Part shown: piece by piece, positions 17,223 through 26,267 of the stretch
Layout of the letters: each line of letters starts with the position of its first letter
Position numbering within the stretch: position 1 is the first letter of the stretch
NCBI RefSeq assembly: GCF_949628265.1
Contig: NC_088786.1
Coordinates: forward strand, 13,826,001 to 13,890,000
Direction of reading: 5' to 3'
Origin: Cloeon dipterum
Lineage: Eukaryota > Arthropoda > Insecta > Ephemeroptera > Baetidae
DNA length: 64,000 nucleotides
Notes under the pieces: model-generated
Databases searched by the model: none
What the model was told of the DNA's origin: nothing
Seen by the model: the letters and a program-made list of their open reading frames with translations, nothing else
Made by a program: the position numbers and the translations under genes

Positions 17223-18193
17223 TTATATACTTGCCTCCTGAGAGTAAATTTTCTCCCTCAACGACTCATGAGTTTTGCTGTCGAAAGGCTCAAAAGAAAT
17301 GTAGTGCGGATCATCAGTAGGAGATAAATCATAAATTCGCTGAATGCTGAGACTAACACACTTCTTAGCCTCTGCCATGAATTTTTCGTGATTCATTTTG
17401 TACCTTAAAGGGGAAATATTTTAATTCCTTTGACAGTACCAAATGTGACCACTTACATTTTAGCAGCCTCTTCATTAACAGGTTGGCCAGGGTCAATTTT
17501 CAGAAATGATTTCCTAACATAATCCACAACTTGCCATATGTGATGCATATTTTTGTTCCACTCTGAGAACCCCCTTCCAATGTTGAAGTCACCTTCAGGA
17601 GAAATTTGCGGATGGAATAACTTTGATTGAAACTCCACTTTCTAAAATCATTCAATAATATGCATTGAAGTTTGTAAACAAGATATTTTTTCTTTACCGG
17701 GCAGCCACCATCTGGGAAGTTTTCTGGTATGACAATATTAAATCTAAAAACGCCTCCAACGTATGGGCCTTGTCGAACAAAAATTACTCCAAACCACACT
17801 AGAAAAATACTATTAGTTTTCATCTAAGAGTAAAATTTTCCAGTACTTAAGGGCGTGTTTGCAGCTGGAACGCAGTAGACACCAGGAATTGCACAGCCTT
17901 GAAGCATGTTGCTGAAAATTGAAGAATACATGGACATGTATTTAATACACGTTTGAATTTTTATGGTTCTTTCATTATTACTATTCAGGAAGAAGCGAAT
18001 ACTCGGTGAAATAGGGTCCATATTGCGATGTGGAGCGGATTCCTGGGAGGGAATTTGTCCGCTCAACCAGTTTTGCTGGATCGGGAACGCCCGGCGTGGC
18101 TGGCAGAACCTTCCTTACGGACCCCTGCCTCTTCAGGGGTTCTGCAACAGCTTCGGGTTCCTCTTCTTCAATGGGCGAGAAACTCGAATCCAT
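17223..18193 (-). CDS. AKTIP: AKT-interacting protein (fused toes) UEV-like
   Basis: Five coding exons, 247 aa: 18193-17982, 17911-17847, 17798-17698, 17641-17457, 17403-17223. Phases agree and the introns are very short (48-70 nt). AKTIP is an E2-variant protein of the FTS-Hook-FHIP complex in endosomal transport; vertebrate AKTIP also binds AKT1. Diagnostic stretches are [44 protein letters not shown] and [19 protein letters not shown]. The ubiquitin-conjugating fold is present, but no Cys occupies the E2 active-site region ([13 protein letters not shown]), as expected for this inactive variant. The ATG at 18193 lies just after a possible acceptor (TTGCTTCAG), so a 5' non-coding exon is likely; in-frame ATGs further upstream (to 18271) are alternatives. 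The C-terminus stops earlier than in vertebrates; AG|GCAAGT near 17230 could be a GC donor to another exon. Confidence 0.9.
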
Positions 18194-19611
18194 GGCCAGC
18201 GAGTGTGCCTGAAGCAAAATAATCTCGTCAATGACATTCATCTCTACCCGCACCAGATGATCAACGTGCACTAATACAACGAGTCAAAATGTTCATGTTT
18301 TCGTGACAGAATAACAACTTTATCTGGGAGGATCCTTGATTGTGTTATCATAGAGATATTACGACGAAAATTAGAATTCTTTTTACAAGGTTGCGTTCAG
18401 TGGGTCAACAGAAACACAATAATCATTTGACTGTATTAATATCTATCATATTTTCAGTTATGTACACAAATGACAGTTGTAAAGCAAATCACACTGTATA
18501 TTATATTCTAATTGAAGTTATAAGTTGTCGTGCAAAAATTCATGCATCGTTACCAATCTTTTGGGCGGACTTCTAGGCATGTCGCAAGCAAAAATTGTCC
18601 AGCATCACACACGACACGAGAAAAGCAAACCTGCTGCACCAAGTGCAAAAGGAAAAATAATACGATTTAGGTGTTATTTACACAGCACACTTCAGGATTT
18701 TGCAAATTGAGCGGAATGTCGACTGACCACAAAACCGCTGGTTCAACAGCTGTCTTGCGATAGAGTTAAAAAAAAGTGTGTGCTTGACGGCTTGACGCTT
18801 GAGGCAGCTTGAGGTGAGCAAAAATTGTAACAACACCTTGTTTTCTACATTACTTTCTGGCTTGAACACGTGAGGGCGCACCTGTCACCACTGATAGAAA
18901 CTCTAGCTGTCTTGCTGGCTGCTGGCTTTCTGATTGGTCACTGGCCAGAAAGCCAAACTCGCGCGTAACGTGTTAGCAGTAATAGCAGTGTTAGCACTTT
19001 CCGGAACCTATGTATGTACTATGTACTTGAAAAAGGATACCGCTCTGCATCAACTTTGATTATCATATGAAAAGACCGGAAAAGTACACATTTACATACA
19101 TATTTTAATACAAAATCTACCTATAACTATTACCTGGACACTACTAAACTTGGACCCTGGACTACATAATCGATCTGTTTGGTTGTACGTTTTGCCTAGA
19201 TATTGTGTGGGTGAGGTTAAAGAGCTTCTTAGGCCTATGATTATCTATGTATCTATGTATGTATGATACACACATAATTCTGGACAATACAAAGTAAGGA
19301 ACAGTACATTATGATGTACATAATAATATTATAATTATTATTATTATATTGACACATTAATATTTCATATTTATGTATATATGTATATACTGTAGATATA
19401 TCATACATAATAATTATGATACATAATTATGTATGTAATATTTATGTTATTATTGAAGACAATATGATACCTGTCCTGATAGTTAAGGATTACGACCTGT
19501 TGTGTATGTACATAATATTATTATGATATAATGTAAATACATTATGTATTATTGTTTTTAATCATGAATTTTTTTACAGTTCATCATAAATTATATAAAA
19601 ATTAACTAAAT
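18194..19611. promoter_or_regulatory. divergent intergenic region, AKTIP / Tudor-Schlafen gene
   Basis: Upstream region of both AKTIP (minus) and the Tudor/Schlafen gene (plus). It must hold both promoters and probably a 5' non-coding AKTIP exon. I see no coding exon. The right part is the low-complexity tract described separately. Confidence 0.4.
19220..19560. repeat. AT-rich low-complexity tract with TATGTA motifs
   Basis: Dense irregular copies of tatgtatgta, acataattatg and ttattattat-type words, with local self-complementarity. It ends about 50 bp before the start codon of the next gene. There is no terminal repeat or ORF to suggest a transposon. Confidence 0.7.
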
Positions 19612-22600
19612 ATGGAGGGCACGGAGGATTTAAGCCAAATCGTTGAAAAGTTAAAACTGGTCGTCGAAGATGAATCTTTAAATGAAAGTAAAATTGTTGC
19701 AGTTGCTGAACAATTAGTTGAAATGTGTGAGAATCACATTGATAAATTCATGGAACGACCTGATTTAGGTATGGTTCACATTATTAAATATAGTTTTGTA
19801 TCTGTTTAAATATTGCATTATTAGATCCTTTGAGTGAGAGTGAAAAGCCGCTTTTGTCTGCCCTGATATTGATTCAACAAACTTTGGCTGCGAATTGCAA
19901 AGTTTTTGAGTTGGTCTTCCTTCAGTCCAATCTCTTGAATCAACTCGCAAAGGTAAAAAGATGGTTGCTAATTAATATTACTTTATTTATTACGGAGTAA
20001 TTTTCAGATGATCACCTTTTATGCAGACATCACTGATTTTATGGTGAAAGACCTGTCAAAAGCATGTGCCTTAGAAAAATTTCTATGCTGGTCAGAAGCT
20101 GTTCCTGCAGGGGACATTATGAAGGAGGCCCTGGAAATGGACCAAATTCCACAGTTGGTCATTAACCTCTGCGAGTGCAGGAATGTGGACTTGCAACACT
20201 TGAAAAACTGTGAGTGTTTGGAGTGTATTGAGTGTGAGGACGTCCTTGCTCAAGAAACACTCCCACCTCAATTTCGCAAGCCGCAACTTACCCTCGGCAA
20301 GGCAATTTTTAAAACAAAATTTTTCAAACCATTTAAACATGATCAAAAGAGCAGGCTGACCATGAAACTCCTTTGATGATGGACAGCGGGAAGGAGGGGA
20401 AGATAGCTTTTCCACTTCGATGCCTGCAATTTCACAAAGCTGCAATATGCTGCGTTGAATCTTACTGGAGCTTACTGGGTTGTCGAAGCGATACAATTTC
20501 TAAAATCATTCACTCGAGACCAATTCCTCAACCTGGAGAATTCTGGATTGGCGTTGGGGACATGGTTGCTGTTGCTTCTAAAGTTGGTAGAACTATATTA
20601 TCTACGATAAGTATATGTACAACATTAATCAACATTATTGGACAGTTTGTTATTTGTTTTTTTATTGTCAAATATATTTGTTGGAAATTTAGCTAGTGCC
20701 CTTCTTCCTTGAAAATTCAAGTTTGAACAACACAAACAATTGAAGGGATTATGTACTAAATTGAGTAAATAGAAACTGAATTGCAATATTGGAACTGCCG
20801 CCCATGGTATTAATATCTTCCATGGTATTAAAATATAGGTTTTCGCTTTAAAAAATAAAGTGATAAAATAAGATTATTTTCAAGAAAAACATAATATTAC
20901 ATGTATTGATCAGATCAGTGGTACCATAATCAAGTGTAAATACTTACATGATTTAATTTATTCAGCAGTCCCCTTTTTGAAAACCATTTGGCTATTTTGT
21001 ATTTGATTAAAATTGTCGTGATATATGTAATCATGTAAAAAGCTTCACCCAATTTTTTACACTTATATAAATAAATATTTCTGCCGCATAGGAAATCTCC
21101 TGGATCAGCTATGAGCCAACATCTCCTACTGCGCCAACCTTGCCTGAATATGTGCGGGCAATCATTCTGACTGACTGCCCCTTACCATTCAGGCAGGGCT
21201 ACCGTGGCGTGTGGCTACCTGACTACGCCGCCCGCGCTCTGTGCAAACCCAGCGTCCTGATTCCACTGGAGAGGAGCGACCCTATTATGACCTGGAAACC
21301 ATTGGTTTATATTGGCAACGCGTGCAGGCCCCCTCCGAACGAGCTGCTTGCGGTGGTGGTCAATCTGATCTATGTCACCCTTAATTCTGGCAAGCTGGAT
21401 GACATCCTTGTCATTTTGGATGGGAAAGGACCATGGAGGGCCTACCAATTAATCAAAGTAAAAAATGAAACCTATGAAACTCGCAAGCAATCCTAAATAT
21501 TTCTTATTTCTGTTGTCAGAGCATTGATGGACGCTTGAGAGTTGAATATCTGGCAATTTTGAATGCCCTTGCTTCTCACTGTGAAAAAGGTAGCAGAGGA
21601 CTCATTGCTTGCTGCATTCACAATTTCTTAGCAGGTAGTGTAGTAGGCTCATTCAACTAAGTAAGGGTTGAAATTGTAAAATTTGTTTCAATTTTTAGAT
21701 TGGTTTGTGTGGTTGATTCATTCAACAAAACCATCAAATGATGAATTGGAGACCCTGATGAATGGAATTAACTTGTATTTGCCTAGGATCGAAGTGAAAC
21801 GATGGCCCAAAAGCCGTCTCATTTATGGAGGTTATTATTTACTTAAAATTGTATTTTAGATCTGTAAAAAATTAATGGTGTTTTCAGCCGCCAACGCACT
21901 GCTAAAATGTTGCCCGTCCGAAAAGCTGCATGCTCAATTGGAAGAGTGCATCCATTACCTCACTTGGGACCTTGGAGGCAGAACTGCAAAGCATAGAAGG
22001 TAGAACCCATTGCTGAATCTTTATATGATTATTTAACATGGCAAAAACTATCTAAAATTACAAATCTCATTTTTATAAACTCAAACGTCCAAATAAAATG
22101 TTGGAAATAATTTAAACCAGGCTTCAAATAAAAGATAGGATATACTAATAAATTTTAAGTGGAACCCAGTACTGTATGATCGCTTTAATAATTTTTTGCG
22201 GGCTTTTTAATTTTCAAAAACCTATAATCCTACATTACAACTGGTTGTTATTTTTCCATAAACTTGCCAGAACACTGACTATTATATACAGACTTAAGCC
22301 ATAAAATGGCCCTATATATTTTTTCCTATTGCCCGGCCTCTTTATCAATTGAAGTCTGCGATAGGCGAATTTACCCTATCCCTGAGGAGGTGGAAGCTGA
22401 AGATGAGCGTTTGCAAGTGGAGGCACTGAAGAGTGACCTAAATGAAAACTGCAAAGCGAATTTGAGTCTTAAAAAGTCGCAGTTGTCTGATTTCAACATG
22501 AGCCGTAAGCAGTGGCCTGGAGAAACCTGGCTATTGCCCAGCAGGTCTACTCTTTCTCTCTTCGCCATTCCAGAGGCTAAGCTGAGTAAGGACACGAAAA

Positions 22601-23522
22601 TTATTTTTTTGTCCTGTATAGAATCAATGTTATTATTTGTAGAAGATGCAGCTTTAGTGATGAGAACCAAGTGTCCGTTCCTCCTGCGGAGGCTTATCTA
22701 CAAACCAGTTGTGCAAAGTCTTAACTGTGAGGTGATGAAAGTTCGCAGCATTAGAGATATCCGACAGCCTTCCTTTGCAAAAATCGTTTGTGGAATGTTG
22801 AATTCTGGCGGAGGTGATATTTGGATTGGACTGGCTGAGGGCTCTAGAGTTGAAGGCGTTTTTGCACATCGCTCTGAACGAGACAGCTTTGCTCAAGGTC
22901 AGTTATGTAATATGAAAATTCCTTAATTTTTAAGCTAATCCTGTGCCAGAAAAATAATACATTTTGTCGTTTCCTGAATTTGGCATCAAAAAGGAAAATA
23001 CAGAAATAATCAGAACAGTGTTCTTGGTGCACAGGAATACCATGGTATTCCTGTTTTCTTCCCATGATATATGTTTAAAATTCGCCAAGCGAGAAAAACC
23101 TATCTCATCTATATTGTACTGTCACAAATTTGGAAGCACGCAGTATGAGAAAAATAGTATGCGCCGCTGCTTCTAAAACACCTGATATTAACAACACTTT
23201 GTTTGGATTCGTATTATTAAAGGTGTGCTTGATGTCGCGACTTATAACATTGAGCCCAGACTGCTACCATTCAACTTGGATATTGAGCAGATTTTGGCTC
23301 TCGACAGACAGACTCAGGAGCTACATCCTGACAGAAATCGCTACATCTACAAGGTCACAGTTAGACCTTTGGAGGTAAGTTAATGTTAAGAATGAAAACT
23401 TCAGAAATGTTTAATATTTTCTAATTTATTAGGGTGTCAACTACTTGACCCTGCCAGAAAAAGAGTGCTTGACAAGGAGGGAGCCCTTGGGAGAGACTGT
23501 CATCAAAGTGGCAGAAGATTAG
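19612..23522 (+). CDS. predicted Tudor-like and Schlafen AlbA domain protein
   Basis: Eleven exons, 768 aa: 19612-19768, 19825-19952, 20008-20301, 20355-20582, 21092-21457, 21520-21634, 21699-21830, 21888-21999, 22365-22897, 23223-23374, 23433-23522. All phases agree. Intron 3 needs a GC-AG border and the exon 4 donor (GTTGGT) is weak. Residues 1-190 look helical with a Cys cluster near 170. Residues 261-330 follow a Tudor pattern: GDMVAVASK, then EYVRAIILTD and VWLPDYAARALCKPSVLIPL, where DY (313-314) sits where Tudor domains have DYGN. Residues 625-768 resemble the Schlafen AlbA_2 fold: QSLNCEVMK, then IVCGMLNSGGGDIWIGLAEG and VEGV. In Schlafen nucleases the first motif begins with Glu; here it is Gln628, while Glu633 and an acidic Glu669 remain. 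Known Tudor and Schlafen proteins act in small-RNA and tRNA processing; a similar role here is inference. Confidence 0.7.
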
Positions 23523-23634
23523 TTTATTTTGTCTGTAATACAGTCAAGCAATGCAATTATGCTCAAAAAATGCTATAATCCAAGCAAATTTATTAAAATT
23601 ATAATTGCATATCTCCAAAACAGGGAACACCTTT

Positions 23635-26267
23635 TTAAGGATCTAACACAATTACCTTCCGTTCATCTGCAATTGCATTTTCTGGACTCATTCTGTTTGC
23701 ATAGTTTGCCCAATACACGAAATTATACAGTGCGAAAATTAGAGGAAACATGTAGATAGCGATTTTCTCAACGCGGGATCCAAGCAGGCTTTCTTTGATC
23801 TCTCCCTTTTCAAGTTTTTCGTCCTTGGCCTCTTCAACCTGAAATTGAAAGTAAAAACTTTATAGATGATCGCAAACTAATGTCACAATTGTATTTAATC
23901 TACATTTTGTCACAATATAAGAGATTGATGGGAATTAATATTCAGTGTTTGATTTCAATAGCAGCTAAAACTTCTTATAATTTTATTATCTTAAACTTGA
24001 ACTGGTCCAAATGAACTTAAGATTGAATTAAAATTGGCTAATTACGCTCAAATATCCTGAACTTTTATCTCATGGTAAAATAATTTTGGTTTGATGAGGT
24101 ACATAAATTATACACTATATTAGGGAAAAAAATTAGTTTTCCTCCACTTCTACCATATCTTATAACGCTGTAGATGATCAATTTTCAGGAATTCAAGCAT
24201 ACTGCTTTTAGTAATTATGCATACTTCTGTTGGAGGCTTAAAGAGCGAATATATTAGACCTGCCTTTGGTGTCAGAAGCCTGGAAATAATCAACACAATC
24301 ATTGGCAGCGTTGAAAGCACCACACTCCAGAAACCCCACGCGTCAAGGGCAGTGCAGTCGTTGGTCTCTGGTCCGAGAGAGGAAGCGAATGCAGCCAGAA
24401 TGGCGGTACACAAGATGCTTACTGCCGAGAGGAACACCTTGATGGTCCAATCCGTGCGCAGCCAGAGACAAAGGTAAGCGAGAGCGACCGCAAATGTAAT
24501 TGGCAAATACGCTTGCAACAGATAACGGCCAAATCCGCGGCGGCTTAGCAGAAAGTCAACCGTTAGACAGCTGTATTCTGTTGGTGAAAATATGCTATAG
24601 TTTAGATTTAGATTTCCAACATAATTAGAATTATACCGCAGAGTGCGTTTGGTTTGCAGCATGCGTCAATTCCGTAGCCCCTAAGCTGGAATGGCTTGGT
24701 TGTCAGCTTCTTGCCGACTGTAACTGGGAAGTCTTTATCTTCATACCAGACGTATTCAAGTTCTTTCCTCTTGTGTCCATCTGAAATTCGAGTTGATAAA
24801 GTTGTAAATTTTCTTGCTCTACAAAATTATTTTTAACTAACTTGAGCCAATATTTTTACAAGTTTAGATTTCTTAAGTAAATTGGTTTAGTTATATATTG
24901 GTGCATTATACTTTTGCTGCAAATGGGTGTTTACAAAAAATGAAACAACTATCGCATTAATATCAATTAAATAAATATTTCCTTAAACACTGAATTTGAT
25001 GCAGTATTCAGCAAATCTAATGAAACATTTGATTAAAATTTAAAAAGAAGATTTTGCGCCCGTTCTAAACGTTTTAACGATCTTATCAAACGCAACTTGT
25101 ATCTTAAAAAACATGCTTAACTTACAGCTTTCAAGGGTGAAGCTGCAGGATTGTACGTCGAAGGGGAATTTAGCGTGGTTGAGCGGGCAGGAAAGAGTGG
25201 TGTGCACTCTCGTGCTGTAAATGACACGGCCGTCGTTGAAAATTTTGATGAACGAGTTTTCAGTGAGGGCTTCGCTAAATTTCGTCCTGCGCTCGTTGAC
25301 GAAGAATGTGTCGGGCACCCAGAGCTTATCTCGATCGTTCAGAACGACATGAGTGATGTCAGCTAAGCGGAATTAATTAATTAAGCGTGATTGATACACA
25401 GTTCGAGTTTTGCTTACGGTTCGTGGCGGAGAACTTTACTCTTGGGTCGGTCCAGCGTTGACGGATGTACATGCTCACTCCAAATTCCTATAAATCATTA
25501 TCGTTTGCTTACTAAACTGTTTATTGGAATCAATTAAGATCAAATATTTCCAACCTGGTCCTCGTCATCAATTTTGTAAATGTCCAGAATGTGCATATTA
25601 ACCGCCACCTGCGTAGAATTTAAATCTGAAATGAGCCAAGGAACCATAAAGGAATAAATTTTCGGCCAACTGCAATAAGCGCAACATAAAGCAAAGTTAT
25701 CTAATATTACATTCCGTTTGAGCAGGATGAGCGATGAAAAGGACGCCCAAGATTTAAATTGGTTGATGTAAAAAGTGGTCAGATCCTATTACGCTAGCGC
25801 TGTATGCTCCAACTGCTCAGCTTCTCAAATTGCCGACGATTAGAGCCACGCACAAACGGCCTGACCACTTGTCATGGGTGACCTTTGTAGCCCCATTATT
25901 GCAAACCAGCAAGCTTAGGTCAACAATAAGCAAATAAACAGTGCCGAGAGCTGCTGAGATATTGCGTTCAACTCGATTTACAGTTAGATATCTTTATTTA
26001 TAAATGCTATTCGCTTGCTTTAACTTGCCTAACTGTTTTAAGAACATTTAAAGTAAAAAAGTATTGCGAACCTGGTGGTCTCAAAGCCAAATTAGTTTTG
26101 ACGTCTGGAAAAATCTGCAGTAAAACGTCTTCCATGTTGGTAACAGTAGCGCTTAAATTTTGCAATCAAAATATTGTATTAAATTTTTTAAACACATCGA
26201 TTTAAATATACCTGGAGGCTGCGAAGGTGTAGCTGACAGCTAAAAGAGCGATGTAAACACGCATCAT
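23635..26267 (-). CDS. Cys-loop ligand-gated ion channel subunit, divergent
   Basis: Eight exons, 404 aa, phases consistent: 26267-26212, 26151-26072, 25625-25555, 25487-25418, 25362-25126, 24780-24637, 24577-24225, 23838-23635. Residues 1-18 form a signal peptide. The extracellular domain has the β-strand motif VSMYIRQRW, loop A WVPDTFFVNE, a 13-residue Cys-loop between Cys151 and Cys165 (with FPFDVQS), and a second Cys pair before TM1 (DACCKPNALCEYSC), as in glycine- and glutamate-gated chloride channels. TM1 is about 238-259, TM2 263-286, TM3 about 298-318, TM4 in the last exon. The TM2 start lacks the Pro-Ala-Arg selectivity motif and reads DWTIKVFLSAVS. The TM3-TM4 loop is short. It is most likely an arthropod-specific anion-channel-like or orphan subunit; ligand and ion cannot be told. 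Its stop lies 112 bp from that of the convergent Tudor/Schlafen gene. Confidence 0.88.

Follow-up and report, generated by a model that had tools for sequence, protein, structure and literature searches.

The window analysed here is a stretch of DNA of 64,000 nucleotides, and all positions without a prefix refer to its first letter. At 19612-23522 on the + strand we identified an ATG-to-stop gene model with 11 exons, ten GT-AG introns and a product of ~767 aa. The features of the gene are listed below and include residues 261-330, which an earlier note on this DNA had described as a Tudor-type pattern.

19612-19768, + strand: coding exon 1, ATG at 19612 (open frame, GT-AG boundary)
19825-19952, + strand: coding exon 2 (gene model)
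20008-20582, + strand: coding exon 3, with a frame break near 20346 (change of open frame; coding-like log-odds on both sides)
20502-20582, + strand: first part of the claimed Tudor-like stretch, residues 261-287 (no Tudor match with Pfam or the own-genome HMM)
20583-21091, + strand: 509-nt intron splitting the claimed Tudor region, donor GTTGGT (lowest donor score among the ten)
21092-21457, + strand: coding exon 4 (gene model; 21092-21196 coding-like)
21092-21220, + strand: rest of the claimed Tudor region, residues 288-330, in exon 4
21520-21634, + strand: coding exon 5 (gene model; a donor after 21589 is also frame-compatible, by eye)
21699-21830, + strand: coding exon 6 (gene model)
21888-21999, + strand: coding exon 7 (gene model)
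22365-22585, + strand: coding exon 8 (lowest acceptor score of the ten; in-frame alternative start at 22299, by eye)
22643-22897, + strand: coding exon 9, first half of the SLFN_AlbA_2 domain (22765-22897) with MLNSGGG (Pfam, motif check)
22714-22716 and 22729-22731, + strand: codons of Q627 and E632 in exon 9 (motif check)
23223-23374, + strand: coding exon 10, second half of the SLFN_AlbA_2 domain (to ~23362; Pfam)
23433-23522, + strand: coding exon 11 with the stop at 23520-23522 (gene model)

The exon boundaries were picked so that the frames join, and the fit of the phases is thus given by construction. The outline of the gene is independently supported by the contrast in base composition: the GC content is 0.457 for the coding sequence (2303 nt) compared to 0.284 for the introns (1608 nt). 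Seven of the introns measure 55-64 nt and the remaining three 325-509 nt. The gene is confirmed in outline, with its 11 exons and on the strand given above. An ATTAAA at 23592, downstream of exon 11, could be the poly(A) signal. The genome (190.1 Mb in 10 contigs, with coordinates prefixed G000) contains the animal gene families Tudor, Piwi and Cys-loop channel. The best explanation of the locus is a nuclear animal gene, probably an insect one, with a product of ~690-767 aa, in which a long N-terminal part without a recognised domain is followed by one C-terminal Schlafen (SLFN/AlbA_2) fold.

Both neighbours of the gene lie on the − strand. Upstream, at ~17223-18283, there is a ubiquitin-conjugating-type piece (UQ_con, 23.8 bits, E 3.6e-5, cut-off 27) together with a second piece without a Pfam match. 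Downstream, at ~23635-25372, one piece matched Neur_chan_LBD with 74.3 bits and indicates a ligand-gated ion channel of the Cys-loop type; a second piece was again without a match.

Exon 3 does not read through in a single frame. One frame is open to ~20346 and another one from ~20349, which places the break within 20340-20352. The product of 768 aa given in the earlier note corresponds to the 767-aa read-through plus the stop and is reached only by passing over this break. An alternative reading is an extra intron at 20210-20439, which shortens the product to ~690 aa; its donor scores 2.4 and its acceptor −2.6, where the acceptors of the accepted introns range from −3.3 to 3.9. We computed codon log-odds with a model trained on the other exons of the same gene and obtained 0.27 bits/codon for 20209-20346 and 0.47 for 20349-20438. 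For comparison, 52 overlapping 138-nt windows of intron sequence showed a mean of −1.01 and a maximum of −0.25 bits/codon. The other two frames of 20209-20346 scored −0.20 and −0.67 bits/codon, hence the coding signal is partly one of base composition. As the stretch 20210-20439 looks coding, a frame break of the assembly or of an allele inside one exon is likelier than the extra intron. The break is present in the assembly as given and would truncate the protein ahead of the Schlafen domain, so that the gene might also be a recently broken or dying copy. We consider this unlikely: the frame is open on each side of a single break, the tested pieces are coding-like, and the break would be accounted for equally well by an error of the assembly or by an intron missing from the model. 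Furthermore, in an exon-level search of the genome with the window protein all 12 matches fell in the window gene itself and no intact paralogue was seen.

The C-terminal part of the protein carries the only domain that was recognised. Pfam SLFN_AlbA_2 (PF04326) matched residues 644-734 of 767 with E 1.8e-5 and 25.7 bits, which is barely over the curated gathering cut-off of 25.3. The score rose to 29.2 bits for the last 165 aa and to 30.0 bits for a 130-aa piece, and one AlbA_2 stretch only was found by Pfam in the whole chain. The AlbA_2/Schlafen module that had been proposed for residues ~625-768 was thus recovered over the cut-off. A sequence search of the PDB with the C-terminal 144 aa gave five rows, none of them significant: SLFN12 twice (E 0.11 and 0.13), a superoxide dismutase (0.37), SLFN11 in fourth place (1.7) and a parasporal protein (2). 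The SLFN12 alignments lie around LNSGGG and are about equal in the N-lobe and the C-lobe. With the whole protein the PDB search returned no match at E≤10. AlphaFold gave a mean pLDDT of 41.3 for exon 9, which was modelled alone as a single-exon fragment; the value is too low to read a fold from it. The protein is very probably a Schlafen-domain protein, and by the curated Pfam standard its C-terminal domain is a Schlafen fold, divergent yet genuine.

A few further searches concerned the rest of the chain and its possible relatives. NCBIfam showed no match for two pieces of the protein, and none of the six matches in a pattern search of viral contigs was related to it. In the N-terminal 208 aa Pfam reported C12orf66_like with E 0.14, which is under the cut-off and was taken as chance. 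Judged by eye, the N-terminal part could be read as ARM/HEAT repeats, a reading that Pfam did not support.

The earlier note had combined the Schlafen module with the Tudor-type pattern at residues 261-330 and regarded the protein as a Tudor-Schlafen fusion in one chain. Pfam does not agree with the Tudor half: for the whole protein AlbA_2 was the only match at E≤1, and Tudor (PF00567) was not found at E≤10 in a 90-aa piece, a 156-aa piece or the alternative splice form. We also built a Tudor HMM from the genome itself, keeping 22 of 30 Tudor exon loci and dropping 8 with internal stops or fewer than 55 aa. The window protein reached −0.1 bits against this HMM, and 31 of 300 shuffled copies stood higher in the list. 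Three splice forms scored between −0.3 and −0.4 bits, and the respective score was equalled or surpassed by 26, 23 and 26 of the 300 shuffles. The control was a leave-one-out scheme in which each held-out Tudor was placed in a shuffled background. All 22 held-out Tudors beat all 300 shuffles. They were chosen by Pfam, so the control gauges the power for ordinary Tudors only. In the corresponding rebuilds the window protein appeared among the reported matches in 6 out of 22 cases, each time with 14-41 of the 300 shuffles scoring as high or higher, and went unreported in the other 16. The alignment of the protein to the Tudor profile with hhalign scored 12.55, which was equalled or beaten by 23 of 100 shuffles. 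For exon 4 alone, again a single-exon fragment, AlphaFold (AF2) gave a mean pLDDT of 40.8, which is too low to speak for or against a Tudor barrel.

Exon by exon, PF00567 matched 43 exons of the genome at E≤1, none of them in the window gene. The same kind of search with PF04326 gave 1 match, which lies outside the window gene; it missed the intron-split AlbA_2 of the window gene itself, and for this reason both genome-wide results are weak evidence. At the level of sequence, an ordinary Tudor domain is absent and the fusion in one chain is not supported. Of the single gene with Tudor and Schlafen domains, the gene outline and the Schlafen half stood, and the Tudor half failed with Pfam, with the own-genome HMM and with hhalign. 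Taken jointly, we regard it as probable that the gene encodes a single-SLFN protein with no recognisable Tudor fusion.

The region could still hold a very divergent Tudor (or extended-Tudor) module in front of the Schlafen fold, and the protein would then be a one-chain Tudor-Schlafen factor, for example of germline granules. By eye, VGDMVAVASK, EYVRAII and WLPDYAARA...LIPLE may be read in the order of the Tudor strands. The best short alignment of hhalign places VGDMVAVASK-EISW on a stretch of the Tudor profile (P 0.21), and with 43 matches the genome contains many Tudor exons. We judge such a module quite unlikely, since no Pfam Tudor was found even at E≤10, the HMM scores stayed at the level of the shuffles in three splice forms while every held-out Tudor was detected, and the hhalign score was matched or exceeded by almost a quarter of the shuffles. 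In addition, the region spans a weak splice junction. A Tudor fusion would have been the striking part of this locus and is unsupported; the window protein is a modest addition to the known Schlafen family and not a new fusion.

The active site of the Schlafen fold was checked with a pattern search. E-x4-E-x-K is absent throughout the 767 aa; what comes closest is Q627-x4-E632, where position +2 holds no Lys. Because the alignment to the Pfam profile begins at its position 19, the register of Q627 and E632 is set by spacing and lies outside the scored part. For SLFN11, the residues E209, E214 and K216 are described as essential and family members without one of them are reported to be endonuclease-deficient (PMC9482658, in extract). 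SLFN12 likewise requires E200 and E205 (PMC8285493, in extract). Read against this pattern, the window protein seems to have a Schlafen domain without two of the three essential residues. The domain might nevertheless be an active metal-dependent RNase with a non-canonical set of residues. Proteins of the Schlafen fold are described as RNases (PMC9482658, PMC8285493 and PMC10567574, all in extract) and E632 is retained, yet with the E-x4-E-x-K pattern absent we find an active enzyme improbable.

A second Schlafen gene is located at G000:C1:34583007-34584140. Its exon at G000:C1:34583601 is the only PF04326 match of the exon-by-exon genome search (33.4 bits), and the spliced protein reached 37.2 bits. 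The second protein carries E-x4-E-x-K in the form EDQNWEFK. Its search against the PDB returned no Schlafen and 5 chance-level rows. At the exon level it matched the genome five times, four times in its own gene and once with E 0.27. The exon-level genome searches with either protein revealed no further paralogues. The extract of PMC10567574 reports potential catalytic residues for the C. elegans protein TOFU-2 and none for TOFU-1. With one Schlafen gene that has the catalytic pattern and one that does not, the genome offers a parallel to PUCH, with its split between TOFU-2 and TOFU-1, that can be tested.

For the window protein we propose the following mechanism. The C-terminal fold would do without the canonical E-x4-E-x-K, the first Glu being replaced by Gln627 and the second kept as Glu632, with no Lys two residues further on. 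The Schlafen fold would then serve as a non-catalytic subunit that binds RNA or a partner, in the manner of TOFU-1, the PUCH subunit beside TOFU-2, or the protein may be of the SLFNL1 type. The product of the Schlafen gene at G000:C1:34.583 Mb is a candidate for the catalytic partner. The gene outline, the Schlafen domain and the missing pattern are observations; we infer the catalytic inactivity, the RNA binding and the partner alike. We put this mechanism forward tentatively, as the best supported of the readings but one that could well fail.

SLFNL1 (human/mouse Schlafen-like 1) resembles the window protein in having one partial C-terminal SLFN domain after an uncharacterised N-terminal region (PMC9256597 and PMC10567574, both in extract). 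The N-terminal part is ~600 aa long here, unlike in SLFNL1, and the likeness is to the published description of SLFNL1. With the nucleases SLFN11, SLFN12 and SLFN13 the protein shares a Schlafen core of the LNSGGG type, and the weak, non-significant PDB matches to SLFN12 and SLFN11 belong here as well. Those nucleases differ in that they are described as two-lobed and as carrying the essential set of E, E and K, whereas the window protein has a single AlbA_2 stretch and the pattern is absent from it.

The junction between exons 3 and 4 has the weakest donor of the model: AAA|GTTGGT scored −1.5, the lowest of ten, on a rough consensus scale with approximated weights. We counted 21 phase-compatible pairs of donors and acceptors at this junction, two of which (acceptors 21193 and 21197) outscore the chosen pair. 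The acceptor at 21092 is favoured because the stretch 21092-21192 is GC-rich, with 50.5% compared to 27.3% for the intron, and because 21092-21196 is coding-like at 0.565 bits/codon. The claimed Tudor region, residues 261-330, spans exactly this junction. The low donor score and the many compatible pairs, together with the AATAAA at 20854 and at 21070 inside the intron, would fit a wrong join of two genes, one with exons 1-3 on the 5' side and another with exons 4-11 on the 3' side. Two separate transcripts are very improbable in our view. A stop closes the frame of exon 4 just before 21092 and the first Met follows only at codon 66, and thus exon 4, whose stretch 21092-21196 is coding-like, needs an upstream exon.

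The genome also contains a gene that bears on the comparison with the piRNA pathway. At G000:C1:30849329-30849917 two exons joined gave 100.3 bits to PLDc_2. The best of nine PDB matches of the protein was mitochondrial cardiolipin hydrolase (E 9.6e-19), a name which we take to cover Zucchini/PLD6, and on these matches the gene appears to be Zucchini/PLD6-like. By eye, an upstream exon of this gene shows a hydrophobic stretch at the N terminus and a part rich in Cys and His that resembles a zinc finger. Given the presence of a Zucchini/PLD6-like gene, a PUCH-like nuclease is not required to explain piRNA 5' ends.

The subunits of PUCH in C. elegans (TOFU-1, TOFU-2 and SLFL-3/4) are described with a single SLFN fold per chain, as in the window protein, and TOFU-1 is without catalytic residues, as the window protein seems to be (PMC10567574, in extract). 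The same extract reports C. elegans to be without a Zuc homologue, unlike the genome studied here with its Zucchini/PLD6-like gene. The likeness between PUCH and the window protein is one of sequence; the trimer, the partner and the work on piRNAs, in which a complex of SLFN proteins cleaves capped precursors, are features of PUCH. A germline RNase of the PUCH type, in which the window protein would be a non-catalytic Schlafen chain with a highly diverged Tudor-like recruitment module of its own and would act with the Schlafen protein of G000:C1:34.583 Mb beside Zucchini, strikes us as extremely far-fetched. Among the matches listed for open-licence PMC we found no study of an insect Schlafen protein of this kind, and no paper on a Tudor-Schlafen fusion as judged by title and start of abstract.

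The genome-wide search for Piwi/Argonaute-type exons gave 59 matches, several of which are clustered, and this suggests an expanded Argonaute/Piwi family. Examples of the Piwi clusters are C4:1250823-1290211, C5:3022304-3029939 and C3:7358345-7532894 (all G000).
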